DNA from: Acetobacteraceae bacterium AT-5844
GTDB taxonomy: Bacteria; Pseudomonadota; Alphaproteobacteria; Acetobacterales; Acetobacteraceae
Direction of reading: 5' to 3'
Length of the DNA stretch: 33,656 nt
NCBI GenBank assembly: GCA_000245075.1
Contig: JH599974.1
Location: forward strand, 1 to 33,656
Positions 3,671 to 18,874 of this stretch are shown piece after piece. The notes under the pieces are model-generated. The model saw only the letters and a program-made list of their open reading frames with translations, ran no database searches and was not told the origin of the DNA. Both the position numbers and the translations under genes were made by a program. Positions within the stretch are counted from its first letter, which is position 1. Each line of letters begins with the position of its first letter.

Positions 3671-4672
3671 ATGGAACTGGCTGAGATCCCCGTGGAGACC
3701 CGCACGGCCCTGGATGCCGCGCGGGAGACGATCGAGCTGGAGACGAGGGGCCTGGCTGCCCTTCGTGCCGCTCTGGATGGCGAGCTGGGCGTTGCTTTCG
3801 AGCGCGCCGTGGAAGCCATTCAGAAGGTGCAGGCACAGAACGGCCGCCTCATCGTGACCGGCATGGGCAAGTCAGGGCATGTGGGGCGGAAGATCGCCGC
3901 CTCGCTCGCCTCGACCGGCACGCCCGCCTATTTCGTGCACCCGGGTGAAGCCAGCCATGGCGATCTCGGCATGATCCGGGATGAGGATGCGGTGCTGGCG
4001 CTGTCCTGGTCCGGCGAGGCGCCGGAACTGTCGGACATCTGCTCCTACTGCACGCGTTTCAGCATCCCGCTGCTGGCCATCACCTCCCGCGAGGAGAGCG
4101 CGCTGGGCCGCGCGGCGACCCACCCGCTGGTGTTGCCGCGCCAGCCGGAGGCCTGCCCGAACGGGCTGGCGCCGACCACTTCCACGACCATGCAGCTGGC
4201 CATGGGCGATGCCCTGGCCGTGGCGCTGCTGTCGCTGAAGGGCTTCTCCGCGCAGGATTTCCGGCGCTTCCATCCGGGTGGCAAGCTCGGTGCCAAGCTG
4301 CGCAAGGCGCGGGACCTGATGCACCCGGCCGCCGAGGTGCCGCTGGTGCGCGTGGATGCCAAGCTCTCCGACGCCATCATGGAAATGACCTCGAAGCGCT
4401 TCGGCGTCACGGGCGTCGTGGACGATGCCGGGCTGCTGGTCGGCGTCATCACCGATGGCGACCTCCGCCGTTCCTTCGCGGACCGCTTCGCTGACAAGCC
4501 GGTGGCCGAGATGATGACCCGCACGCCGCGCAGCGTCGCGCCCGACATGATGGCGACGGAAGTGCTGGCGGAACTGAATGATGCCGGGATCACGACGCTC
4601 TTCGTCGTCGAGGGGCGCCGCCCGGTCGGCATTCTGCACGTGCACGATCTGCTGCGCGCCGGGGTGGTCTGA
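3671..4672 (+). CDS. kdsD: D-arabinose 5-phosphate isomerase, KpsF/GutQ family
   Basis: 333 residues from the ATG at 3671. The open frame extends upstream into kdsB, but the start used here gives the normal family length, with purine-rich GGAGC-like sequence before it. The enzyme interconverts ribulose 5-phosphate and arabinose 5-phosphate, the substrate of KdsA. An N-terminal SIS domain (about 40-190) carries VTGMGKSGHVGRKIAASLAS and LSWSGEAPELSD. Two CBS domains follow (about 210-330), with VGVITDGDLRR and VGILHVHDLLRAG. With kdsA and kdsB this operon supplies the path from ribulose 5-phosphate to CMP-Kdo except for the KdsC phosphatase, which is not present here. Confidence 0.95.
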   Translation: MELAEIPVETRTALDAARETIELETRGLAALRAALDGELGVAFERAVEAIQKVQAQNGRLIVTGMGKSGHVGRKIAASLASTGTPAYFVHPGEASHGDLGMIRDEDAVLALSWSGEAPELSDICSYCTRFSIPLLAITSREESALGRAATHPLVLPRQPEACPNGLAPTTSTTMQLAMGDALAVALLSLKGFSAQDFRRFHPGGKLGAKLRKARDLMHPAAEVPLVRVDAKLSDAIMEMTSKRFGVTGVVDDAGLLVGVITDGDLRRSFADRFADKPVAEMMTRTPRSVAPDMMATEVLAELNDAGITTLFVVEGRRPVGILHVHDLLRAGVV

Positions 4673-4680
4673 ACTGCCCC

Positions 4681-4701
4681 GCTGAGCGCCTGGCGCTCAG
4701 C
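4681..4701. terminator. Hairpin between convergent genes (kdsD and the minus-strand gene)
   Basis: GCTGAGCGCC (4681-4690) and GGCGCTCAGC (4692-4701) are perfect 10-base inverted repeats around a single T, so in RNA they form a stem of about 8 pairs with a small loop. It begins 9 bases after the kdsD stop and overlaps the stop codon of the convergent gene. No T-run follows on either side, so it is a likely bidirectional termination or 3'-end-stabilising hairpin rather than a textbook intrinsic terminator. Confidence 0.55.
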
Positions 4702-5152
4702 CTTGCAGCGTGGTGACGCTGATGGTGGAGAGAGCGAGGGAGAGGCGGCGTTCGTCCATCTCTCCTCTCTCCTTCGGACTTTGTGTCCGCACGCTGTCGA
4801 TATCCAGCCGCATGGCGCCGAGATGCGCCACCGGGCCCGGCTTCAGGCAGGCGGCGATGCGGGTGCCGCTGGCATCGCGGCACAGCGCTGCCGGCACCCA
4901 TGGGCCGCCATCCAGTGCGAGCCGTACCTCTTCCAGCACCTCCGGCACGAAAGCCGAATAGATGTGCAGCGTGACATTCAGCGTGCTGTCGGCATCCATG
5001 CCTGTATCAGGCTTGGGTAGGAACACCGTGGCGAGCGGCGATGGACCGATCCAGCGGAAGGCCGTGCCGTCGGGTGACTGCTCGGGCGGGTAGAAGCCGC
5101 CCTGGACAAGGGTGGCGTCGCAGATGAATGTCGCTGCCTGTCCGATCTCCAT
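4697..5152 (-). CDS. Uncharacterised 151-residue protein, possibly carbohydrate-related
   Basis: The frame is open further upstream, but the ATG at 5152 is preceded on the minus strand by AGGAAAGG at suitable spacing and starts a well-composed protein (MEIGQAATFI). There is no signal peptide or membrane segment. The sequence alternates short hydrophobic strands and polar turns, suggesting a beta-sandwich, with GGFYPPEQSPDGTAFRWIGP in the first third. That kind of stretch resembles accessory domains seen beside bacterial glycosyltransferases; this is recollection of a pattern, not a firm assignment. It is divergent from the plus-strand glycosyltransferase cluster, sharing its upstream region, and convergent with kdsD. 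Confidence 0.65.
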   Translation of the reverse strand: MEIGQAATFICDATLVQGGFYPPEQSPDGTAFRWIGPSPLATVFLPKPDTGMDADSTLNVTLHIYSAFVPEVLEEVRLALDGGPWVPAALCRDASGTRIAACLKPGPVAHLGAMRLDIDSVRTQSPKERGEMDERRLSLALSTISVTTLQG

Positions 5153-5289
5153 GGCTGGCCTTTCCTGGTCCTGGATGCGGCACTGTAGAGCAGATTCCGG
5201 CAGGACTGAATCCGCCGGACGGGACACGCTGCCCGCGTTCAGCGGCGGGGTTCGAGGACGGTATGCGAGGGGATGAAGCCGGAGGGGCC

Positions 5290-5769
5290 ATGGCGGAGGT
5301 GTTGGGGACGGACCTCTCCACCCTGTCCTTCGCGGAGCTGGGGCTGCGCGCACGCATCGCGCTCATGAGAACCATGACCCCGGCCGCGGCCCGCTGGATT
5401 GCCGAGGCGCCTCTGACGCTGCCCGGCCGTCCGCCGCGGCTGCCGGCCGCCGATATGAGCCATACCCTGCCCTGGGAGGGGCGAGGGCCTCGGGAGTGGC
5501 GGGTCTATACCCGCCGGCAGGTGGACCCGCGCATGCCCTTCCTGTTGCGGGCTGTGGTGCCCGATGCCCGCCCCTATGAACAGGTGGTAGATGCGGCGTT
5601 CCAGACCTTCCTGAATCGTCTGCCTGACCCTGGCAGCCGCGCTGACTACGCCCGTTCCATTGAGCGCGGCGCCTTGAGTGTCGAGGTCGTGTTGCGTGCC
5701 ATCGCTGCCTCTGCCGAGGCACAGGCGCGCGAGGAGGAGGTGCGCCTGGTATGCGCGGCCATTCCTTGA
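5290..5769 (+). CDS. Protein with DUF4214-like C-terminal region
   Basis: 159 residues from the ATG at 5290, chosen because GGAGGGG lies directly before it; an in-frame ATG at 5263 with GAGGA upstream is also possible. The N-terminal half (SFAELGLRARIALMRTMTP) is helical with no signal peptide. The C-terminal part, about residues 100-155 (AAFQTFLNRLPDPGSRADYA, then SVEVVLRAIAAS), resembles DUF4214, a short helical domain often found in surface-layer and glycosylation-related proteins. The large glycosyltransferase starts 13 bases later, so the two are surely co-transcribed and probably act in the same glycan pathway. Precise role unknown. Confidence 0.7.
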   Translation: MAEVLGTDLSTLSFAELGLRARIALMRTMTPAAARWIAEAPLTLPGRPPRLPAADMSHTLPWEGRGPREWRVYTRRQVDPRMPFLLRAVVPDARPYEQVVDAAFQTFLNRLPDPGSRADYARSIERGALSVEVVLRAIAASAEAQAREEEVRLVCAAIP

Positions 5770-5782
5770 GGCAGTCCTCGCC

Positions 5783-7924
5783 ATGAACGTGCCGTCCCTG
5801 CTGTTGTTGGCCTCGCCGGATGATGCGCAGGTGCGCGCGCTTGCGGCCTCTCTTTCTGACCGCTGGGCGGTGACCATTTGCGTGCCACGGGCTCTGGAGC
5901 AGTTCGCCGGGCCGGCAGAGGCGGTGCGGGAGCTGCGCCGACGGGCAGAGGCCAGCGCATTGGTGCTGTATCTCTCCTCCGACGGCGCGCAGGCCCTGGC
6001 GGGGCTGGAAGGGCTGGCGGAAGTCTACGCGCCGGCCGAGTTCAGCCTGTGTCGGTTGTCGCCCGAAGAGCGAACTGAGCCCGAGGCGTGGGAGGCCGTG
6101 TGGCGACGGGAGCGTGACCTGGCTCGCCGGGCGCGTTTCCTCGTGGTGGCAGATGAGGAAAAGGCCCTGAAGGCGCGCCTGTTGTATGGGGTGCCCGAGC
6201 AGCGGATACGTCGGCCAGGGGCGCTGGAGGCGGTGCTCAGCGAAGCGCTTGCCGCGCCGGACGCGCCGCAGGAACCGACCCCACGCTTTACCCTGGCTCT
6301 GAACGATTATCTTGTGGGCGGAATGCCGAGCGGCGGCGCCGTGCGGGTGTGCCAGGGGCTGGAAGCGCTGGGCGAAGACACGCTCCTGTTGTCTGCGGGT
6401 ATCCGGGGTGCCGCCGAGATGGTCGCGCCGCACGTGCTGCAACTCTCCGTTCCAAAGGGGCGGGGCCAGAAGGCGCTGGAGGCCGATTTCAGGGCATTGG
6501 CGGGCTCGGGGCTGGAGGACATCATGACCCTCCTGCATGCGCCTGCTCATCCTGTTCTCACGGCCGTGGCAGCCGATCTGGCGCAGCGGGCGCGGGTGGC
6601 GGTGTTCGAGCATTGCTACATGGCATCGCTGCTGGACGTGATGCGGGAAGCGGCGCCGGCGCTCCCGATTGTTTATGACGCGCACAATGTCGAAAGCCTG
6701 CTGAAGCGGGAGCTGCTGGCGGGTCATCCGGCGGAGGCGGTGCTGTGCCCGGTGGTGGAGGAGGTGGAGCGGCGGCTGGTGGATGCTGCCGGGCTGGTGC
6801 TGTGCTGCAGCGAGGCCGACGCCGCCGCTTTCCGCCCGCAGGCGCGCAAGGTGGTGATGATGCCGCATGGGATTGCGCTGGTGCCGCCCGCCGCCTCGCC
6901 GGAGGCGGAAGGGCCCGTACGGGTCGGTTTCCTCGGTTCCTCCCATCCTCCCAATGTCGCGGCGGCGCAGTTCATCCTTGAGCGGCTAGCGCCACTGTTT
7001 CCCCAGGTCGTCTTTGAAGTTGTAGGCAGTGTGTGCGGCAAGCTCACGGGCGCGCCGGCCAATGTGGAGTTGCGGGGGATACTGCCGGAGGCCGCCAAGA
7101 ATGCGGCACTGAGTGGATGGACCGTCGCGCTGAACCCGGTGGAAAGCGGCAGTGGTGCCAGCCTGAAGCTCGCGGATTATCTGGCTCAGGGCCTGCCGAC
7201 ACTGAACACGCCCCATGCCGCGCGGGGCTTTGAGAGGGTGGCGGCGGGCGCAGGGCTCGTGGTGCCGCTGGACGCATTCCCTCAGGCGTTGGAAAGGTTG
7301 CTGGCGGAGCCGGGCGAGGCTGAACGTCTGCGCAACGCGGCGAGGCAGGCGGCCGAGGCGCAGAGCTGGCCCGCAATGGCGGCCGAGGCGCGGAAGGCTA
7401 TCGACGCACTGGTGGGCGATTATCGGCCGGAAGTGCCCCCTGCCCTGCTGGCCATAGGTGAGTCAGCCGCGTGGAAAGGGCGGCTGGATCCGCGCTTCAG
7501 GCGCATCGACATGGTTCCAGAGAGAGACGGGCCGGACTGGCCCAACTTCGTCGACAAGGTTTTGGCCGAACCGCGCTGGGCCGCGGCACCGTGGGACGGC
7601 GCGCCGGCCAGGGCGCGGGCTTGGCTGCAGGCGCGGCCAGAGGCATGGCGGGCGGAGCAAGCGGGCTGTGCCGCCTATGGGATCGAGGCAGGCGGCGAGC
7701 GCCTTCATCCCCAGTTCGGCTTGCTGGTGGGCGCCGGAATAGAGCGCATCGCCCTGGAATGGAGAGCCCGTAAGCCCATTCAGCTGATGCTGCGCTATGG
7801 CAAGCCGGGAGGGGCCCCTGCCCTGCTGTTCGATCAGCGAGTGGAGGGAGATGTAAGGCTCGTGCTGCCCCTTCAGGCGGAAGGTCAACCGCTTACTGCT
7901 GGAAGGCGTGGTGCGGGAGGGTGA
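5783..7924 (+). CDS. GT-B type glycosyltransferase (family 4-like), C-terminus possibly frameshifted
   Basis: 713 residues from the ATG at 5783, which follows GAGG in the preceding gene's end. An N-terminal region (about 1-170) is of unknown type. The catalytic GT-B part has an acceptor-side domain with IVYDAHNVESLLKRELLAG and a donor-side domain beginning VGFLGSSHPPN (about 381), then NPVESGSGASLKLADYLAQGLP (about 452-473) and LNTPHAARGFE, the usual nucleotide-sugar binding segment of GT4 enzymes. A tail of about 130 residues after position 560 looks like a separate beta-rich domain. The frame ends in an atypical LTAGRRGAGG, while the neighbouring frame continues with good protein-like sequence. 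A one-base shift near 7877-7884 would join the two. It probably builds a surface polysaccharide; sugar unknown. Confidence 0.8.
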   Translation: MNVPSLLLLASPDDAQVRALAASLSDRWAVTICVPRALEQFAGPAEAVRELRRRAEASALVLYLSSDGAQALAGLEGLAEVYAPAEFSLCRLSPEERTEPEAWEAVWRRERDLARRARFLVVADEEKALKARLLYGVPEQRIRRPGALEAVLSEALAAPDAPQEPTPRFTLALNDYLVGGMPSGGAVRVCQGLEALGEDTLLLSAGIRGAAEMVAPHVLQLSVPKGRGQKALEADFRALAGSGLEDIMTLLHAPAHPVLTAVAADLAQRARVAVFEHCYMASLLDVMREAAPALPIVYDAHNVESLLKRELLAGHPAEAVLCPVVEEVERRLVDAAGLVLCCSEADAAAFRPQARKVVMMPHGIALVPPAASPEAEGPVRVGFLGSSHPPNVAAAQFILERLAPLFPQVVFEVVGSVCGKLTGAPANVELRGILPEAAKNAALSGWTVALNPVESGSGASLKLADYLAQGLPTLNTPHAARGFERVAAGAGLVVPLDAFPQALERLLAEPGEAERLRNAARQAAEAQSWPAMAAEARKAIDALVGDYRPEVPPALLAIGESAAWKGRLDPRFRRIDMVPERDGPDWPNFVDKVLAEPRWAAAPWDGAPARARAWLQARPEAWRAEQAGCAAYGIEAGGERLHPQFGLLVGAGIERIALEWRARKPIQLMLRYGKPGGAPALLFDQRVEGDVRLVLPLQAEGQPLTAGRRGAGG

Positions 7925-11141: not shown

Positions 11142-11340
11142 GTCGGAAGGTCAGTACTGCTGCCCAACCATGGGCAATTGTTCACTTGGCATTTGAAGCC
11201 AAGATTGGTGCCATGGCGCACCTGCCCGGCGAGTCGCAGTTGCGGCGCGCCCCTTCTGTGTTCACCCCTAAGCCTCGTTAAGAGGGCTGCGTGACTGACG
11301 CTTCGCCGGACCGGACCTGCAAGCCATGCAAGGAACGGTC

Positions 11341-12090
11341 ATGTCCGTCTTTTCTCGACGCCAGTTGCTGTCTGCTACAGCGCTGGTTGCCTTTTCCTCC
11401 TCAGCCTTAGCCCGAAATTTCTCTGGCCGCCTGCCATGGCGGCCGAACGAGGCCTACCCGCCTTCCGTCGTGCGGCCGGGCGGCTGGTATTTCCTCACCG
11501 CGGATGAAGTGGCGACGCTCGACGCCATCGTCTCCCGTCTGATCCCGGGCGATGATCTCAGCCCCAGCGGTAAGGACGCCGGCTGCACCGTCTTCATCGA
11601 CCGGCAGCTCGCGGGTCCTTACGGGACTTATGAGTGGCTCTATATGCAGGGGCCGTTTTCCAGCAAGCCGTTGCCCACGCAGGGCATTCAGTCGCCGCTG
11701 GTGCCCCAGCAGCAGTACCGGCAGGGGCTCGCCGCGCTGGCCGCTTACTGCCGGCAGAATTTCGGTGGCAAGACCTTCGAGCAGCTCGCGCCCGAGGAGC
11801 AGGATAAGCTGCTTCAGGGCATGGAGAAAGGCGAGGTGCAGTTGCCTGGCCTGGCAGCGCCGAACCTCACGACGACCATGCTGTTCAACCTGCTGCTGCA
11901 GAACACCATGGAAGGTTTTTTTGCCGACCCCATCTACGGCGGCAATAAGGACATGTGCGGCTGGCGGATGATCGGCTTCCCCGGCGTCCGCTACGATTTC
12001 CGCGATGTCCTCAACAATCCCGGCAAGCCTTACACCAAGCCGCCCGTTTCCATCATGGGCCGCCCTGACTGGAACGGAGCCCCCACATGA
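11341..12090 (+). CDS. Gluconate 2-dehydrogenase subunit 3 family protein (small subunit)
   Basis: 249 residues from the ATG at 11341, preceded by AAGGAACGG; an ATG 15 bases upstream is less well placed. The Tat-type signal FSRRQLLSATALVAF (4-18) fits this subunit class, whose export carries the flavoprotein partner across the membrane. The body matches the subunit 3 family: YFLTADEVATLDAIVSRLIPGD after the signal, and near the end the conserved DPIYGGNKDMCGWRMIGFPG. It binds and stabilises the catalytic subunit of membrane gluconate, fructose, sorbitol or glucose dehydrogenases. Its stop overlaps the next start (ATGA), the first link of a three-gene operon. Confidence 0.92.
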   Translation: MSVFSRRQLLSATALVAFSSSALARNFSGRLPWRPNEAYPPSVVRPGGWYFLTADEVATLDAIVSRLIPGDDLSPSGKDAGCTVFIDRQLAGPYGTYEWLYMQGPFSSKPLPTQGIQSPLVPQQQYRQGLAALAAYCRQNFGGKTFEQLAPEEQDKLLQGMEKGEVQLPGLAAPNLTTTMLFNLLLQNTMEGFFADPIYGGNKDMCGWRMIGFPGVRYDFRDVLNNPGKPYTKPPVSIMGRPDWNGAPT

Positions 12091-13859
12091 GCACTCGTCT
12101 TCCGCGCAAGGATGTGGTGATCGTCGGTCTTGGCTGGACAGGTTCCATCATGGCCTATGAACTGGCCAAGGCCGGGCTCGATGTCGTGGCCATTGAGCGC
12201 GGGCCGTGGCGGGACACGGCAAGCGACTACAATATCGCGACCGCCCCGGATGAGCTGCGCTATGCTGTACGTCAGGACATTTTCCTGCGTCCGGCACAGG
12301 ACACGCAGACTGCCCGCAACAATATGAGCCAGACGGCGCTGCCGATCCGGAAATACGGCTCCTACCTGCCGGGCAATGGCGTCGGTGGGGCCGGGGTGCA
12401 TTGGAACGGGCATACCTGGCGCTTCTTCCCGACCGATTTCAACCTGCGGACCCACTACACGCAGAAATACGGCGCAGGCATCATTCCGGAGGACTGCACT
12501 GTCCAGGACTGGCCCGTCAGCTACGACGAGCTGGAGCCGCATTACGATTTCTTCGAGAAGGTGTGCGGAATTTCCGGCAAGGCAGGGAATATTCGCGGCA
12601 CCATTCAGCCAGGGGGGAATCCCTTCGAGGGCTGGCGCTCCGACGAGTATCCGACCAAGCCGCTGAAGCCCAATCTGGGGCAGACAATGTTCCACAAGGC
12701 GGCGACGGAGCTGGGGCTGCATCCTTTCCCGCTGCCGTCGGCAAATATTTCCGAGGCCTATACCAATCCCTATGGCGTCCGCCTGGCGCCTTGCACCTAT
12801 TGCGGCTTCTGCGAATGGTTCGGCTGCGCCAATTATTCGAAGTCCAGCCCGCAGACCTGCGTGTTGCCGGTGCTGATGCGCCAGACGAACTTCGAGGCCC
12901 GCACGCTTTGCGAGGTGATGAAGGTCAACACGACGCCGGACGGCAAGATGGCCACCGGCGTGACTTACGTGGACAGCGCCGGGCGGGAGTGGGAGCAGCC
13001 GGCGGATATGGTGCTGCTTTGCGCCTATGCCATCTTCAACGTGCGGCTTCTGATGCTCTCCAACATCGGTACGCAGTATGACCCGGTGAACAACACCGGC
13101 ACGCTCGGCCGCAACTATGCCTATCAGACCAATGCCGGTTCCGTCGGCTGGTACGGGAAGGACGTCAACTTCAATCCTTTCGCCGGCGCGGGTTCGCTCG
13201 GCATGATGGCTGACGATTTCAACGGCGATAATTTCGACCATACCGGGCTCGGCTTCATCGGTGGTGCCAACATCGCCTGCAACACCACAGGTGGCCGGCC
13301 CATCAGCAACCGCCCGGTGCCACCGGGCACGCCGCGCTGGGGTTCGGCCTGGAAGAAGGCGACGGTCGATAATTATGGCCACTCTCAGGGCGTCGGTACG
13401 CAGGGCAGTTCCATGTCCTATCGCGATGTCTATCTGGACCTCGACCCCACCTATAAGGACCGGCTGGGTCGACCGCTGATGCGCATGACCTTCGACTTCA
13501 AGGAAAACGACCTGAAGATGTCGCGCTATGTCGTCGACCAGACGGCAAGGATCGCACGGGCGATGGGCGCCAACCAGGTCACGACCACCTATAAGCAGGC
13601 CGGCTGGAGTGTCGTGCCTTACCAGACCACGCACAACACGGGCGGCGCGGTGATGAGCAGCACGCCGCAGGACGGTGTGGTGAACCGCTACACCCAGCAC
13701 TGGGATGTCCCGAACCTGTTCGTCTCGGGGGCCTGCCTCTTCCCGCAGAATGCGGGGTACAACCCGACCGGCACGGTGGGTGCGCTGGCTTACTGGGCGC
13801 TGGATGCCATCAAGAACCAGTATCTGAAGAACCCTGGCCAGCCGATGGTGCAGGCGTGA
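12087..13859 (+). CDS. GMC-family FAD dehydrogenase, gluconate 2-dehydrogenase-type large subunit
   Basis: 590 residues. The FAD dinucleotide fold opens at VIVGLGWTGS (GxGxxG at 14-19), followed by VVAIERG. GNGVGGAGVHWNG is the typical substrate/FAD segment of this group, and the C-terminus has VPYQTTHNTGG and NAGYNPTGTVGALAYWA, the usual catalytic His and Asn regions. A cysteine cluster (C236, C239, C242, C247, C258) lies in a segment where related FAD-glucose dehydrogenase catalytic subunits carry an iron-sulfur cluster; spacing differs, so that role is inferred. There is no own signal peptide, consistent with Tat export together with the small subunit. It would oxidise a sugar, sugar acid or polyol in the periplasm and pass electrons to the cytochrome subunit. 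Substrate not determined. Confidence 0.93.
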   Translation: MSTRLPRKDVVIVGLGWTGSIMAYELAKAGLDVVAIERGPWRDTASDYNIATAPDELRYAVRQDIFLRPAQDTQTARNNMSQTALPIRKYGSYLPGNGVGGAGVHWNGHTWRFFPTDFNLRTHYTQKYGAGIIPEDCTVQDWPVSYDELEPHYDFFEKVCGISGKAGNIRGTIQPGGNPFEGWRSDEYPTKPLKPNLGQTMFHKAATELGLHPFPLPSANISEAYTNPYGVRLAPCTYCGFCEWFGCANYSKSSPQTCVLPVLMRQTNFEARTLCEVMKVNTTPDGKMATGVTYVDSAGREWEQPADMVLLCAYAIFNVRLLMLSNIGTQYDPVNNTGTLGRNYAYQTNAGSVGWYGKDVNFNPFAGAGSLGMMADDFNGDNFDHTGLGFIGGANIACNTTGGRPISNRPVPPGTPRWGSAWKKATVDNYGHSQGVGTQGSSMSYRDVYLDLDPTYKDRLGRPLMRMTFDFKENDLKMSRYVVDQTARIARAMGANQVTTTYKQAGWSVVPYQTTHNTGGAVMSSTPQDGVVNRYTQHWDVPNLFVSGACLFPQNAGYNPTGTVGALAYWALDAIKNQYLKNPGQPMVQA

Positions 13860-15091
13860 TGCGCGGCGCGATTCTCGCCACTGCCCTGACGGTGGCTGCT
13901 CTGGCTGCGGGCCCTGTGCGGGCCGAGCCGGATAACTATACCGAATCCGAGCGGGGCCGGTACCTGACCATCCTTGGCGACTGCATGGCCTGCCATATCG
14001 GGCCGGACGGACAGTCGCTCGCGGGCGGGCATCTGCTGGAAACGCCTTTCGGCAAGATCTCGGTGCCGAACATCACCCCCGATGATGAAACCGGCATCGG
14101 CCGCTGGACCGCAGACGATTTCGACCAGGCGATGCGCCATGGCGTGCGGCCAGATGGAACGCATCTTTATCCGGCCTTCCCCTACACATCCTTTACCAAG
14201 ATGTCGCGGGCGGATAACGACGCCATCTTCGCCTATCTGCGGACGCGCCCGGCGGTCGAGCACCGGGTGGACCGTGATACGCTGCCTTTCCCTTTCAACA
14301 TCCGGTTGTTGATGGCGGGCTGGAACTGGCTGAACTTCACCCCGGGTGAGTTCCAGCCGGACCCGCAGCGCTCGGCCGAATACAATCGGGGTGCCTATCT
14401 GGTGGAAGGGCCGGCGCATTGCGGCCTGTGCCATACCCCCCGCAACCTGATCGGCGGCGATCAGACGAGTGCGCATCTGGAAGGCGGGGCCCTGCAGGGC
14501 TGGTTCGCCCCGAACATCACCGCCGACAAGCGCCTCGGCATCGGCGATTGGTCGGAGGCGGAAATCATCGCCTATCTCCGCACCGGCCACACGGAACGCA
14601 GTGCTGCCAGTGGCCCGATGGCCGAGGTGGTAGCGTATTCGACCAGCCAGATGACCGAAGCCGATCTGAAGGCCATCGCCGTCTATCTGCGGGAGAGGGG
14701 GGGTGCTGGCTCCGCCGCGCCGGCACCTGTGCCGGCGGAGGACAGCCGCATGCGGGCGGGTGCCGCAATCTATGACGATACCTGCGCTGCTTGCCATGTT
14801 GGCGACGGAAGCGGGGCGACGGGCATGTTTCCGCGCCTGGCGAACAACCAGCTGATCCTACAGGACGATCCGACCGGCATTCTGCGCGTGGTGCTGCAGG
14901 GGTCACAATCTGTGGCTACGCCGCAGGCCCCCACCGCTCCGTCCATGCCCTCTTTCAGCTGGCGGCTGACGGACCAGCAGGTGGCGGATGTGGCCACTTT
15001 CATCCGCAACAGCTGGGGTAACGCCGCGCCGGCCGTCTCGGCGGAACAGGTCCGCAAGATGCGTGAACTGACGGCCGAACGCCCAGACTGA
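13859..15091 (+). CDS. Triheme cytochrome c subunit of the membrane dehydrogenase
   Basis: 410 residues from the ATG at 13859, whose A is the last base of the preceding stop; a GTG three bases earlier is possible. A Sec signal peptide (MRGAILATALTVAALAAGPVRA) leads to three c-type heme sites: CMACH (42-46), CGLCH (188-192) and CAACH (309-313). Each is followed by the usual cytochrome domain, for example MRHGVRPDGTHLYPAFPYTS after the first. This is the layout of the cytochrome subunit of gluconate, alcohol and sorbitol dehydrogenases, which transfers electrons to ubiquinone. Unlike some homologues, I see no clear C-terminal membrane anchor. Confidence 0.95.
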   Translation: MRGAILATALTVAALAAGPVRAEPDNYTESERGRYLTILGDCMACHIGPDGQSLAGGHLLETPFGKISVPNITPDDETGIGRWTADDFDQAMRHGVRPDGTHLYPAFPYTSFTKMSRADNDAIFAYLRTRPAVEHRVDRDTLPFPFNIRLLMAGWNWLNFTPGEFQPDPQRSAEYNRGAYLVEGPAHCGLCHTPRNLIGGDQTSAHLEGGALQGWFAPNITADKRLGIGDWSEAEIIAYLRTGHTERSAASGPMAEVVAYSTSQMTEADLKAIAVYLRERGGAGSAAPAPVPAEDSRMRAGAAIYDDTCAACHVGDGSGATGMFPRLANNQLILQDDPTGILRVVLQGSQSVATPQAPTAPSMPSFSWRLTDQQVADVATFIRNSWGNAAPAVSAEQVRKMRELTAERPD

Positions 15092-15115
15092 GGGGGAAGC
15101 TGACCAAGCCAAGGC

Positions 15116-15154
15116 CGTATCGCTGTGCGGGCGGGTGACCCATGCAGCGATACG
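15116..15154 (+). promoter_or_regulatory. 10-bp inverted repeat between the cytochrome and pterin-synthase-like genes
   Basis: CGTATCGCTG (15116-15125) and CAGCGATACG (15145-15154) form a perfect 10-bp stem around a 19-base loop containing GCGGGTGACCC. It starts 24 bases after the cytochrome stop and ends 88 bases before the next gene. No T-run follows, so it may be a termination/3'-end hairpin of the dehydrogenase operon or a structured leader of the next gene. It does not match a riboswitch I can name. Confidence 0.45.
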
Positions 15155-15242
15155 CGCCTTAGGCAAGTAAGATAAACTTGAAAAGCGTTAAGCCCTCATG
15201 CATGTGCTGTTAAACCAGCAGAGGGGCTTCGCCAGCAAAGCC

Positions 15243-15623
15243 ATGCTTGAGACCTTCATCGAATTCACGTTCGAGGCGGCGCACACCACGCCGCCTTATC
15301 CCCATCCCCATGGCCATACCTTCAAGGCACAGGTCATCCTGACCGGGACGCCTGACCCGTATTACGGGTGGTCGCATGATTTCCGCGATGTGGAACCGGT
15401 GGTGGAAGAGGTCCGGAAGGAACTGGACCACAAATATCTCAACGACATCGAGGGTCTCTCGATGCCGACCCTGGAGAATGTGACCCGCTGGATCTGGCAT
15501 CGGCTGGACGGCCGCATCGCCGGCCTGGACCGCGTGGTGCTGCGCCGGGGAGCAGATGGCCACGCCGAAGGTTGCTCTTATCGCGGGGCCGGCCAGACCT
15601 TCCCTGCCGCTGCCGCCGGCTGA
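15243..15623 (+). CDS. 6-pyruvoyl-tetrahydropterin synthase / QueD family protein lacking the catalytic cysteine
   Basis: 126 residues from the ATG at 15243 (MLETFIEFTFEAAH), which matches the family N-terminus; an in-frame ATG at 15198 is possible but adds an untypical leader, and neither has a strong ribosome-binding site. Zinc ligands are present (H14, and H23/H25 in HGHTF), as are DPYYGWSHDFRDV, ELDHKYLND and the closing CSYRG. Family members act on dihydroneopterin triphosphate, giving pterin or the 7-deazaguanine precursor. In QueD and classical synthases a Cys lies a few residues before HGH; here that stretch is TTPPYPHP with neither Cys nor the Glu of the PTPS-III type. The reaction is therefore uncertain. 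It lies upstream of a putative pterin-sensing pair. Confidence 0.85.
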   Translation: MLETFIEFTFEAAHTTPPYPHPHGHTFKAQVILTGTPDPYYGWSHDFRDVEPVVEEVRKELDHKYLNDIEGLSMPTLENVTRWIWHRLDGRIAGLDRVVLRRGADGHAEGCSYRGAGQTFPAAAAG

Positions 15624-15636
15624 CCTCACCTGGACC

Positions 15637-15660
15637 GCCAGCCGGGGAATGCCGGCTGGC
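15637..15660 (+). terminator. Terminator-like hairpin after the pterin-synthase-like gene
   Basis: GCCAGCCGG / CCGGCTGGC form a 9-bp GC-only stem with a six-base loop, 14 bases after the stop codon. A CTTTTTCTTG stretch lies about 20 bases further on (from 15680), too distant for a classical terminator but suggestive. The remaining gap to 15853 holds no gene I can support and probably contains the promoter of the next pair. Confidence 0.5.
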
Positions 15661-15853
15661 CCCTGGGCTGGCCGCCAATCAACTTTTTCTTGTCTCTGTT
15701 GTGGTGGTGGAGCGCTGCCAACCATTTCCGCCGGTCGGCGGCGAAGCTAAGCTCCTTGGATTGCGGGGAATGCAACGCATCTTCTTTTTAAGGAAGATGC
15801 GGGATGATCCGCCGCAATACTTCAACACTTGCCGCTGCCAGGACAGACCCCCC

Positions 15854-16390
15854 ATGACGAAACAGCTCGGTCGTCGCGCTTTCCACAGCTTGTCCCTGGG
15901 CGTTGCCATGGGAATGGGCGGAGCCCTGCTGCGGCCTGCCCCCGCCCGCGCGGAGCTGCCGAAGCCGAAGGGCGACGTTATCCTCTCCATCACCGGTCGG
16001 ATCACCCGAACCAATGCCACCGATGCGGCCGAGTTCGACCGGGACATGCTGGAAGCCATGGGCATGGCCTCTTTCACGACGAAGACACCCTGGTACCCCA
16101 ACCCGGTAACCTTTGAAGGAGTGCCGGCGCGAGCGGTGATGGAAGCGGTCGGTGCGCAGGGCACGACAGTCACTGCCGTTGCTCTTAACGACTATTCCAC
16201 CGAGATCCCGATCGCGGATTTCACCCGTTATAATGTCCTGTTCGCGCTGAAGCGGGATGGCAGCTACATGCCGGTGCGGGACAAGGGCCCCATTTTCGTC
16301 GTCTACCCTTATGACACGGACCCTATCCTTCACAGCCGCAGCTATTACGGCCGCTCGGCCTGGCAAGTGACGCGCTTGGTCATTTCCTGA
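15854..16390 (+). CDS. Periplasmic molybdopterin/SUOX-fold protein, PruR-like candidate pterin sensor
   Basis: 178 residues from the ATG at 15854. A signal with a twin-arginine-like pair (LGRRAFHSLSLGVAMGMGGALL, cut near ARA) sends it to the periplasm. The mature part is a single, small oxidoreductase molybdopterin-binding (SUOX-like) domain: GDVILSITGRI, VTFEGVPARAVMEAVGA, TAVALNDYSTEIPI and a C-terminal DKGPIFVVYPYD with SRSYYGRSAWQ. It is much shorter than real molybdoenzymes and has no visible cofactor Cys. PruR of Agrobacterium has this build and binds pterins rather than acting as an enzyme. The next gene, a membrane GGDEF-EAL protein, starts 24 bases later, the same arrangement as pruR-dcpA. 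The functional assignment rests on that parallel. Confidence 0.82.
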   Translation: MTKQLGRRAFHSLSLGVAMGMGGALLRPAPARAELPKPKGDVILSITGRITRTNATDAAEFDRDMLEAMGMASFTTKTPWYPNPVTFEGVPARAVMEAVGAQGTTVTAVALNDYSTEIPIADFTRYNVLFALKRDGSYMPVRDKGPIFVVYPYDTDPILHSRSYYGRSAWQVTRLVIS

Positions 16391-16414
16391 TCCTTGCACC
16401 CGGCGGAGGGAAGC

Positions 16415-18874
16415 GTGCTCGCGAAGAAGGGAAAGGCGCGCGCAACACCGCGCCGACGTCTTGCCATCATTCGCGCGCTTCTGGTGGTGCTGGTGGCGGG
16501 CTTCGCCACCACCTCCGTCTACGTCTCCACGCTCATTGTGCAGCGCAATGAGGCGTTGCAGCAGACCTCCCGCTACAACACCAGCTTCACGATCGGGCAG
16601 GCGGCACTGGAGATCGCGCGGCTGCAAACGATGCTGGCCTCCTACGCGCTCCGCCCTGGCCAGATGGAGGAGGAACAGGTCCGGTTATGGCATGACATTG
16701 TCGCCGGGCGCATCCCTGTGCTCGAGAGCGGCGACGTGGGTGAATTTATCCTGGCCGATCCGCGGCGCGAGGCTGTGCTGAGGGATTTCAAGGTGGTGCT
16801 GCGCGCCTCGGAGGCAATGCTGCCCCAGCTGTCCGAGCCTGGGGTGGCCATGCGCATGGTGCAGCTATGGGCCAGACTGAACGTACCGCTTACGCGGCTG
16901 ACGTCCGCCGCCCATGGCGAAGGCGGCAACCAGGTGACGGGCGACCTGCGCGAACTCAGCCGGCTGCACTGGAACTTCTCCTATCTGCTAATCGGCATGA
17001 TCGTGGCGAGCTTCGGCCTGATCGTCATGCTTGGCTGGAACAACCAGCTGTTAAGCCGCGCCTATGCGGACGTGCAGAAGCTGCTGCGGGACCTCCGGGT
17101 GGCGAGTTCCGACCTCGAGGATGCGCATGCCCGACTGGGCCGCGCGATGCTGGAATCCCAGAGCCAGAATGCGGTGCTGCGGCGCAGGGATATCGAGCTG
17201 AACACGCAGAACACGCGCTTCGACGCCGCTCTGACGAACATGTCTCAGGCGCTGTGCATGGGGGATGGGGACCAGCGGGTGATCGTCTGCAATAGCAGGT
17301 TTCTGGCGCTGTTCGGTGTTTCGCGAGAGGTGACCGAGGCCAATACGCCGATCGAGGAGCTGTTCCGGGCGATGGAGGAGCGGGGCGCTTTTGGCATCAG
17401 CGCCCTGCGCCGGGTAGAGGAAGCGCAGCGCCAGTGGGTGCGGGAGCGGGGCGCCGGTTCCCTGACCGTGGAGGACGAGAACGGACGCGCACTGGCATTG
17501 TCTCACCGGCCCATGCCGGATGGCGGTTGGGTGGCCACCTATGAAGATGTCACCGCCCAGCGCAGCGCCGAGCGCCGCATCCGTTTCCTGGCATTACACG
17601 ATGCGCTGACCTCGCTACCGAATCGCACGCTGTTCCGGGAGGCGTTGGAGAAGGCGCTGACACGGCAGGAAGCGGGCATATTGCCAGCGCTGCTCTGCCT
17701 CGACCTGGACAATTTCAAAATCGTCAACGACACGATGGGGCATCCCACGGGTGATGCCTTGCTGACCGCGGTCGCTGACAGGCTGAGCGCCTGCGTGCGG
17801 CAAGACGATATCGTCGCGCGGCTTGGCGGCGACGAGTTCGCGGTGCTGCTGGCCGATGCCTCGCTGGAAGACACCCTGGCCTTGGCGCGGCGTATCACCG
17901 AATTGCTGGGACGCCCCTATCAGATCGAGGGCCGGCATGTCGTGACAGGCGTCAGCATCGGTATCGCGCTGGCGGACCGGCCCGACATGACGGCGGATAT
18001 GCTGCACCAGAACGCCGACATGGCCCTGTATCGCGCCAAGGCGGCAGGCCGGGGCACGTGGCGCGTCTTCGCGGCGGAAATGGAGGCCGAGGTGCAGGCC
18101 CGGCTCGCCATTGAACTGGACCTACGCGAGGCGATGGCCCGGCAGGAGCTGGAGCTGTTCTACCAGCCGCAGATCGACCTGAAGAGCGGCCGCCTGGTGG
18201 GATGCGAGGCGTTGATGCGCTGGCGCCACCCCGTGCGGGGACTGGTGCCGCCGAACCGCTTCATCCCGATTGCCGAGGATCTGGGGCTGATTACCGCGAT
18301 GGGCGAATGGGCTTTGCACCGCGCCTGCGCCGATGCCGCCAAGTGGGACACAGAGGTGAAGGTTGCGGTCAACCTTTCTCCCGTGCAGTTCATGACCGGC
18401 GACGTAGTGCCGGTCGTGTCGGACGCGCTGCGACAATCTGGCCTGAGCCCGTCGCGGCTGGAACTGGAAATCACGGAATCCGTCCTGCTGCAGGATAATC
18501 AGGCGACGCTGACCACCTTGCAGGCGTTGCGTCGGCTGGGTGTGCGCATCGCGTTGGACGATTTCGGCACGGGCTACTCGTCCCTCGGCTATCTGCGGCA
18601 CTACCCCTTCGACAAGATCAAGATCGACCGTTCCTTCGTCATGGAAATCGGCACGCGCCCGGATTGCGCTGCGATTGTCGATTCCATCGCCAGTTTGGCG
18701 AGCCGCCTCGGCATGATCACGACGGCGGAGGGGGTGGAGACGGAGGAGCAGATGCGGCTGGTGAAAGAGGCCGGCTGCACCGAAGGGCAGGGCTATTACT
18801 TCGGCCAGCCGCTGCCGCTGAAAGAAATGACGTTGTTGCTCTACCCCGGTGCAAGCGCCGTGGGGGGAGCCTGA
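16415..18874 (+). CDS. Transmembrane PAS-GGDEF-EAL dual cyclic-di-GMP enzyme, DcpA-like
   Basis: 819 residues from the GTG at 16415, chosen because GGAGGGAAGC directly precedes it; a TTG at 16394 would add seven residues. Order: membrane segment (about 14-35), periplasmic helical domain (36-185), second membrane segment (about 188-208), coiled coil (about 212-265), PAS-like domain (about 266-385), GGDEF domain with an intact GGDEF at 471-475 and an RQDD inhibitory site at 462-465, and an EAL domain with EAL at 598-600, NLSP, EITES, DDFGTGYSSL, KIDRSF and EGVETEEQ. Both synthesis and degradation of cyclic-di-GMP therefore look possible. The periplasmic domain probably contacts the SUOX-fold protein encoded just upstream, switching the balance between attachment and motility. 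Confidence 0.95.
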   Translation: MLAKKGKARATPRRRLAIIRALLVVLVAGFATTSVYVSTLIVQRNEALQQTSRYNTSFTIGQAALEIARLQTMLASYALRPGQMEEEQVRLWHDIVAGRIPVLESGDVGEFILADPRREAVLRDFKVVLRASEAMLPQLSEPGVAMRMVQLWARLNVPLTRLTSAAHGEGGNQVTGDLRELSRLHWNFSYLLIGMIVASFGLIVMLGWNNQLLSRAYADVQKLLRDLRVASSDLEDAHARLGRAMLESQSQNAVLRRRDIELNTQNTRFDAALTNMSQALCMGDGDQRVIVCNSRFLALFGVSREVTEANTPIEELFRAMEERGAFGISALRRVEEAQRQWVRERGAGSLTVEDENGRALALSHRPMPDGGWVATYEDVTAQRSAERRIRFLALHDALTSLPNRTLFREALEKALTRQEAGILPALLCLDLDNFKIVNDTMGHPTGDALLTAVADRLSACVRQDDIVARLGGDEFAVLLADASLEDTLALARRITELLGRPYQIEGRHVVTGVSIGIALADRPDMTADMLHQNADMALYRAKAAGRGTWRVFAAEMEAEVQARLAIELDLREAMARQELELFYQPQIDLKSGRLVGCEALMRWRHPVRGLVPPNRFIPIAEDLGLITAMGEWALHRACADAAKWDTEVKVAVNLSPVQFMTGDVVPVVSDALRQSGLSPSRLELEITESVLLQDNQATLTTLQALRRLGVRIALDDFGTGYSSLGYLRHYPFDKIKIDRSFVMEIGTRPDCAAIVDSIASLASRLGMITTAEGVETEEQMRLVKEAGCTEGQGYYFGQPLPLKEMTLLLYPGASAVGGA

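Follow-up and report, generated by a model that had tools for sequence, protein, structure and literature searches.

In Agrobacterium tumefaciens, DcpA is under the control of PruR, a protein that binds reduced pterins, and the best in-vitro PruR ligand named is tetrahydromonapterin (PMC13259868). We analyzed a stretch of 33,656 nucleotides from Acetobacteraceae bacterium AT-5844 (assembly GCA_000245075.1, contig JH599974.1, positions 1 to 33,656), referred to as the window, in which a predicted pruR gene lies between a gene of the 6-pyruvoyl-tetrahydropterin synthase (PTPS) family and a gene for a DcpA-like protein. The locus represents a clade-specific variant of PruR-DcpA signalling in which gene order links the receptor with a PTPS subfamily of a distinct kind. 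It is probably a PruR-DcpA pterin-to-cyclic-di-GMP switch that comes with its own pterin-making or pterin-tailoring enzyme.

The window locus has in common with the A. tumefaciens system the PruR pocket, the order of PruR followed by a GGDEF-EAL partner, and a sensor in which a periplasmic domain lies between two transmembrane (TM) segments. However, the pair in the window has a PTPS-family neighbour (with FolE as well in some relatives), while the A. tumefaciens ligand needs PruA. The A. tumefaciens locus is compared by description only, and the available text of PMC13259868 names no pterin-synthesis gene there; in this text "pyruvoyl" is absent and folE is mentioned only as the general first step. 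Nor was PTPS or FolE linked to PruR in the literature covered, i.e., titles, abstracts and the available text of PMC13259868, but not the primary PruR papers. Some PruR-DTB systems, in which the partner is a histidine kinase, have PruRs of this group and likewise a PTPS neighbour, and the window locus differs from them in its GGDEF-EAL output. With QueD and the PTPS-I, -II and -III enzymes (COG0720), the window PTPS shares the fold, the AAH and HGH histidines and the Asp-His pair, but it is without the Cys/Glu and the loop, ends in an RGxxGxxEG C-terminus and is found by PruR instead of queC/queE. The tetrahydrobiopterin pathway, consisting of GTP cyclohydrolase I, PTPS and a short-chain dehydrogenase/reductase (SDR), is similar in that FolE and a PTPS-fold protein are adjacent in some loci; it differs in the receptor context of our locus and in the lack of a linked SDR among the relatives examined.

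The features of the locus are:
15243..15623, + strand: PTPS-family gene, Cys-less short-loop type, 126 aa (open reading frame (ORF) and PF01242)
15624..15853, + strand: gap between the PTPS gene and pruR, 230 bases
15854..16390, + strand: pruR, SUOX-fold pterin-binding protein, putatively periplasmic, 178 aa (phmmer to 7kos/7kou)
16394..18874, + strand: DcpA-like gene, TM - periplasmic domain - TM - PAS - GGDEF - EAL (Pfam, motifs, hydropathy)
16586..16612, + strand: FTIGQAALE in the periplasmic domain, at the place of the WX7E motif of DcpA

Three gene products and their signature residues

The initial annotation described the upstream protein as a member of the 6-pyruvoyl-tetrahydropterin synthase family. 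This holds for family and fold, but not for a canonical synthase, as the catalytic Cys and the six-residue loop are gone; the protein is thus predicted to have the PTPS fold, yet not to be a canonical 6-pyruvoyl- or 6-carboxy-tetrahydropterin synthase. PF01242 matches it with 83.3 bits (E 1.7e-23; gathering score 22.4), and the best NCBIfam model is the QueD model TIGR03367, yet at 70.1 bits this is below the cut-off of 89.25. The AlphaFold model (29-row alignment, pLDDT 91.7) has the P. aeruginosa PTPS 2oba as its best PDB match in Foldseek (E 5.7e-13, TM-scores 0.83/0.87), and it matches 2oba and E. coli QueD at TM-scores of 0.82-0.90.

The QueD-type AAHRLPxVPxGHKCxRLHGH is replaced by AAHTTPPYPHPHGH in the window PTPS, with the six-residue, Cys-bearing loop deleted, and the C-terminal ETC of QueD is replaced by RGxxGxxEG. 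The sole Cys, C111, is away from the catalytic position. His14, His23, His25, Asp62, His63, Glu78 and Glu109 are kept, and all of these except His63 are invariant in the 11-row Cys-less alignment; they presumably have zinc- and pterin-binding roles, as in QueD and other PTPS proteins. The Cys of the deleted loop is the catalytic one in QueD-type proteins, in agreement with the class motifs given next. These motifs are CxxxHGH for PTPS-I, CxxxxxHGH for PTPS-II and ExxHGH for PTPS-III (PMC5041015). The window PTPS reads PPYPHPHGH and fits none of them: the PTPS-I/QueD motif is missing, Pro stands where CxxxxxHGH has Cys, and Pro also takes the position of the PTPS-III Glu, where the other aligned types have Ser/Thr. 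The comparison covered PTPS-I, -II and -III among the classes named in PMC5041015, which also include PTPS-IV, -V and -VI. Against Pseudoroseomonas aerophila (G004), a member of the same genus as the window genome, dN/dS was 0.07 for the PTPS, 0.15 for PruR and 0.19 for the DcpA-like protein, with synonymous sites near saturation. Therefore the PTPS gene, which has the lowest value of the three, is under purifying selection and not decaying.

By its sequence, the 178-aa protein is PruR. In a PDB sequence search its best match was 7kos (phmmer E 1.9e-55), and three more pterin-binding-protein entries also matched. The 7kos entry is A. tumefaciens PruR (PMC13259868), with which the window PruR is 58% identical over 143 columns. 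With the longer ORF 15572-16387 as query, Pfam returned Oxidored_molyb (PF00174, E 1.3e-5). The pterin-pocket residues, which the initial annotation had made a check of its proposal, are present: N112, Y114 and W170 align with N102, Y104 and W160, the pterin-pocket residues of the A. tumefaciens protein (PMC13259868). All three are conserved in 63/63 PTPS-linked PruR rows, while among 106 unlinked rows (12 of them with one flank shorter than 1.5 kb) N102 is changed to D in 19, Y104 is altered in 5 and W160 is altered or absent in 8. As is characteristic of PruR, the protein has no Mo-ligating Cys, since it contains no Cys at all. Its N-terminus resembles a twin-arginine (Tat) signal, GRRAFHSLS...ARA/ELP, as judged by eye only.

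The DcpA-like protein contains PAS_7 (E 1.9e-28), GGDEF (E 1.6e-43) and EAL (E 1.8e-78) domains in Pfam, with the RxxD (RQDD, 17798), GGDEF (17825) and EAL (18203) motifs in place, and it has two hydrophobic segments at approximately residues 21-50 and 193-217. A periplasmic region between TM segments, followed by GGDEF and EAL and encoded after pruR, is the arrangement of DcpA. ORFs, Pfam and hydropathy thereby bear out the SUOX-fold protein, the intact motifs of a two-TM PAS-GGDEF-EAL protein and the 24-base spacing noted initially; this spacing applies to the GTG start at 16415, whereas the in-frame TTG at 16394 would leave 3 bases after the pruR stop.

Linkage of PTPS and PruR across genomes

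A profile search of genome contigs with the 11-row Cys-less PTPS alignment returned at least 590 stretches, and 80 loci were kept. Each of the best 31 (E 3e-76 to 1e-36) lacks the Cys, and PruR is adjacent in 31/31, in agreement with the co-occurrence that the initial annotation had proposed to check. The output is a GGDEF-EAL gene in 30 of them and a histidine kinase in L137. Genera represented include Roseomonas, Pseudoroseomonas, Siccirubricoccus, Crenalkalicoccus, Paeniroseomonas, Pararoseomonas and Belnapia and, beyond this group, Aminobacter, Nitratireductor and Mesorhizobium together with one Roseiarcaceae and one Hyphomicrobiaceae bacterium. Two organisms contribute two loci each to the 31, and at least 11 repeat loci of the first PruR set defined below. 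The remaining 49 of the 80 loci (E >= 5e-30) are QueD-like, with PruR in 0/49 (up to 8 kb per side, many contigs being shorter). They are mostly Cys-bearing, and L162 and L166 are without the Cys but retain the loop length. Most of the 49 belong to other classes or phyla, which makes them an imperfect control. A better control is provided by at least 12 genomes bearing the trio, which have a further PTPS paralog on a different contig or some 400 kb off. Counting against this paralog control, L079, L110 and L111 have a longer gene of the QueD type at a distance of about 1.3 kb from the Cys-less PTPS by PruR; L110 (the same as L130) is from Roseomonas mucosa and the other two are from relatives.

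In plasmid records, 7 of 37 PTPS matches were at least 52% identical (six from Aminobacter and one from Paroceanicella). A PruR match lies about 330-360 bases away in 7/7, two of them confirmed by annotation; this check covered these 7 of the 37. Collectively, the adjacency of PTPS and PruR is more than chance, and it recurs across many genera of the family as well as in Hyphomicrobiales and Rhodobacterales.

Seen from the receptor, PruR matches occur in 65/249 genomes of the family (E <= 0.001) and 67/385 genomes of the class (E <= 1e-8). The first set of loci consists of the window, L052-L060 and L070-L125, i.e., family PruR matches of E ~1e-18 or better plus G001, and it also includes two G055 loci from outside the family. 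The second set consists of 79 PruR loci from other alphaproteobacterial families. Both sets leave out the weakest matches, which are family matches of E 2e-5 to 8e-4 and, in the class, four of E 2e-10 to 4e-9. PTPS is linked to PruR in 31 first-set loci and in 2/79 second-set loci (L207 and L208), and in the other 77/79 the stretches searched gave no PTPS match. The arrangement is thus a clade-level variant. Neither PTPS nor FolE was found by the distant-type PruRs of the same genus (L043, L045, L047, L048 and L049), which have short flanks and were not counted.

A PTPS-family gene is present within 3 kb of 32/42 close PruRs (phmmer E < 1e-48) and of 0/96 more distant ones, where the bin was chosen after the data were seen and eight truncated rows, one of them linked (L120), were excluded. 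We estimate that far below one chance neighbour would be expected among the 42, because most genomes, of some 4 Mb, have one to three PTPS genes. A PruR tree was built from 119 rows (the first set, second-set rows of E <= 1e-30 and, from the 31 best loci of the contig search, 9 rows), and it has few columns and many weak forks. In this tree, 41/41 linked rows are inside one group of 45 with support 80 (not starred), which also holds the unlinked L075, L055, L098 and L105, the last at a contig end. The linked state changes 5 times on the tree.

The PTPS itself is exchanged between loci. By best phmmer match, the 31 linked first-set loci have the Cys-less PTPS in 15 cases, a Cys-bearing b-type, which keeps the Cys in SHCxLxHGY or close to it, in 12, and a Cys-less and still shorter c-type in 4. 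FolE is within 3 kb in 12/31 of these loci, one of them (L095) with a weak fragment, and in 10/31 and 1/2 linked loci of the other two sets. It accompanies the b-type in 8/12 first-set loci, one weak, and sits between PTPS and pruR in L053, L081 and L109. The PTPS gene is codirectional with pruR in 22 linked first-set loci and divergent in 9. Output at linked PruRs is either GGDEF-EAL or a histidine kinase, the latter in L095, L100, L101, L103, L108, L207, L208 and L137. Since three PTPS types and both kinds of output occur with the same PruR group, the enzyme tracks the receptor group and not the output. Retention of a PTPS despite changes in kind and orientation is what one expects for an enzyme serving the ligand of the receptor. 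On the contig of L104 (8014-18597), a PruR/GGDEF-EAL locus with the b-type is separated by about 8 kb from a second such locus with the Cys-less PTPS.

Elsewhere in the class, the b-type was found in 1/289 genomes, with PruR absent by eye from its 1.5-kb flanks. It is present in 11 plasmid records, three regions of which were viewed. A Rhizobium rhizogenes plasmid has it with folE and a condensation-domain gene, and a Streptomyces plasmid with non-ribosomal peptide synthetase genes. On pSR3 of Aminobacter sp. SR38 (L330, 1-11025), the b-type PTPS is located between queE and queC, with pruR about 5 kb off. Here pruR and the gene for its EAL partner are flanked by a gene pair for an acyl-homoserine lactone synthase and an autoinducer-binding protein on one side and by the queE - b-type PTPS - queC row on the other, beyond which there is a further autoinducer-binding gene.

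Proposed mechanism and competing explanations

As a step on from linkage, it is likely that the PTPS makes the PruR ligand; this step, the identity of the ligand and the direction of the output are all inferred. The cytoplasmic Cys-less PTPS would act on a GTP-derived pterin, either 7,8-dihydroneopterin triphosphate (the FolE product) or a later pterin; the substrate could come from a neighbouring FolE at some related loci. The product would then reach the periplasm and occupy the Asn112/Tyr114/Trp170 pocket of PruR, which in its loaded form might dock on the DcpA-like protein at its periplasmic domain and shift cyclic-di-GMP synthesis versus breakdown. In every match listed, the Cys-less PTPS subfamily is located by PruR, sometimes with GTP cyclohydrolase as well, which makes its product a candidate PruR ligand. 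Synthesis and sensing of one pterin signal may thus be encoded together in the cell, and one receptor group seems to be paired with different pterin enzymes. It also suggests that the Aminobacter and Paroceanicella genes annotated as 6-carboxytetrahydropterin synthase (queuosine) are signalling genes, as are related genes in Roseomonas, Nitratireductor and Mesorhizobium.

Several observations weigh against a locus with its own pterin enzyme. The window PTPS has neither the catalytic Cys found in PTPS-I/II nor the PTPS-III Glu, and one would therefore not expect it to perform ordinary synthase chemistry. No FolE match was found in the window, even though its genome does encode one FolE. Since 230 bases part the PTPS gene from pruR, a single transcript would be an assumption. 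A PTPS neighbour is lacking at 10/42 close PruRs, of which only L105 is at a contig end and nine are not, and close PruRs on Phyllobacterium and Pseudochrobactrum plasmids also have none. The genome encodes a PruA-like SDR elsewhere (TGGARRLG and YTVSK), so that tetrahydropterins have another source and the A. tumefaciens route may suffice. Finally, WX7E is reported as a motif in the vast majority of DcpA/DTB periplasmic domains (PMC13259868), and in FTIGQAALE the Trp is Phe while the Glu is retained. We therefore label the partner DcpA-like, and the homologous PruR-DcpA system proposed initially stands with respect to PruR identity and gene order but not this Trp. With one crude pattern, the WX7E position in linked effectors (n=62) is W in 44, F or Y in 11 and without a match in 7, and in unlinked effectors (n=94) it is W in 59, F/Y in 6, L in 6 and without a match in 23. 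Of the 7 linked effectors without a match, L104 and L053 read FVASLAPVE by eye and L099 is a misread frame.

A bolder version, which we regard as possible but doubtful, is that the Cys-less PTPS constitutes a new enzyme class making an extracellular pterin signal, and that the locus, together with FolE in some relatives, is a complete send-and-receive unit like a synthase-receptor pair in quorum sensing. In line with tetrahydromonapterin as the best ligand in vitro, such an enzyme could, for example, tautomerise or epimerise dihydroneopterin triphosphate and not remove its side chain. If this is true, the PruR ligand would be identifiable from what the PTPS makes.

The main rival explanation, which we find unlikely, is that the Cys-less PTPS is a cytoplasmic pterin-binding protein which buffers, sequesters or delivers a PruR ligand made elsewhere. 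The ligand would then come from FolE and a PruA-like reductase, and the PTPS would set its periplasmic amount. Loss of the catalytic Cys and the loop in 31/31 members listed, with HGH and the pocket-side Glu retained, fits such a role, and so does the PruA-like enzyme encoded in the genome. Pteridine reductases have TGx3RxG (PMC13259868), and among the 30 best match loci of the reductase model NF006598 this motif occurs with YxxxK in 28, including the window genome, while L326 has TGx3GxG and L301 (short) has neither. The model alone separates nothing, because it matches in 58/58 genomes searched and none of the matches is above the cut-off. A window PTPS standing in for a missing PruA is not supported, as the PruA-like SDR is present. 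However, other loci fill the place of the PTPS with the Cys-keeping b-type, mostly together with FolE, which points to chemistry, and the b-type is found in apparent small-molecule clusters in 2/3 plasmid regions viewed.

It is improbable that the PTPS, PruR and DcpA-like genes are instead part of the flanking operons, with the SDRs acting as pterin reductases. The upstream flank is:
11326-15091, + strand: gluconate-dehydrogenase-subunit-3/GMC/cytochrome c set, upstream of the PTPS gene

Downstream of the DcpA-like gene on the + strand are, by sequence, SDR1, SDR2, an amidohydrolase and then peptide ATP-binding cassette (ABC) transporter-like genes. SDR1 starts 19 bases past the DcpA-like stop, and the gene order is the same in Pseudoroseomonas aerophila. 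Pteridine reductases belong to the SDRs, and sepiapterin reductase is likewise an SDR. However, the flanks differ in L053 and L054, and an SDR1/SDR2 match follows the effector in no other linked locus of the first set (L127-L157 were not covered). Four other genomes encode relatives of SDR1 with 60-69% identity, and the contigs concerned have no PruR match. Both SDRs also fail the PruA motif, as TGHRGGIG and TGGTRGIG follow the general TGx3GxG without the pteridine-reductase Arg. SDR1 and SDR2 are therefore rejected as PruA or as members of the module, having the wrong motif and not being linked in relatives.

Least probable, and rejected here, is that the PTPS is the QueD of the genome, serving queuosine and located near pruR by accident: even though the Aminobacter and Paroceanicella records annotate 6-carboxytetrahydropterin synthase, the best NCBIfam model is QueD, and the window genome is without the longer-type PTPS that adjoins a queE-like gene in relatives, the score is under the QueD cut-off, CxxxHGH is absent, PruR is adjacent in all of the 31 best matches listed, and L079, L110 and L111 have a separate QueD-type gene as well.

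Gene boundaries and other pterin-related genes

The PTPS-family ORF has an alternative in-frame ATG at 15198, 45 nt upstream of 15243. The gap between the PTPS gene and pruR is poorly conserved in comparison with the closest relative. Rfam gave no match in the window, and a consensus scan of 15050-16420 found neither a sigma-70-type promoter nor a terminator, so that these searches gave no sign of a riboswitch or promoter in the gap.

Other genes of possible pterin function were seen near PruR on plasmids. An FkbM-family methyltransferase follows pruR-dcpA in L286 (7554-8261), L289 (7501-8214) and L292 (7419-8105), which are Phyllobacterium, Pseudochrobactrum and Paracoccus plasmids. At least 9 of 17 plasmid records with an FkbM of at least 50% identity have PruR within about 3 kb, as judged by coordinates among the best 60 of 634 PruR records. 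The ligand proposed for A. tumefaciens is 2'-O-methylmonapterin, and FkbM could be the missing O-methyltransferase. L293-L296 (approximately 4366-7514), from Mesorhizobium, Chelativorans and Aquibium plasmids, have the row response regulator - FkbM - hypothetical protein - histidine kinase, which is near secretion-system or repABC genes in 3/4 viewed; the hypothetical protein of L293 (182 aa) had no Pfam match. In the fetched alphaproteobacterial PruR loci there was no FkbM and one FolE2 (GTP cyclohydrolase IB), located about 3.5 kb from PruR (L276, 2498-3604). FolE2 is also encoded directly upstream of pruR in Paracoccus liaowanqingii (L292, 3699-4751).

A PTPS match was present in 16/16 genomes of the same genus searched, with the type unsorted. 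The second PTPS of the window genome, on contig C41 (L061, 5065-7815), has HGA in place of HGH and lies in the row glycosyltransferase - PTPS - dehydrogenase-like - RibD_C-like, which possibly belongs to a pterin glycoside or related pathway.

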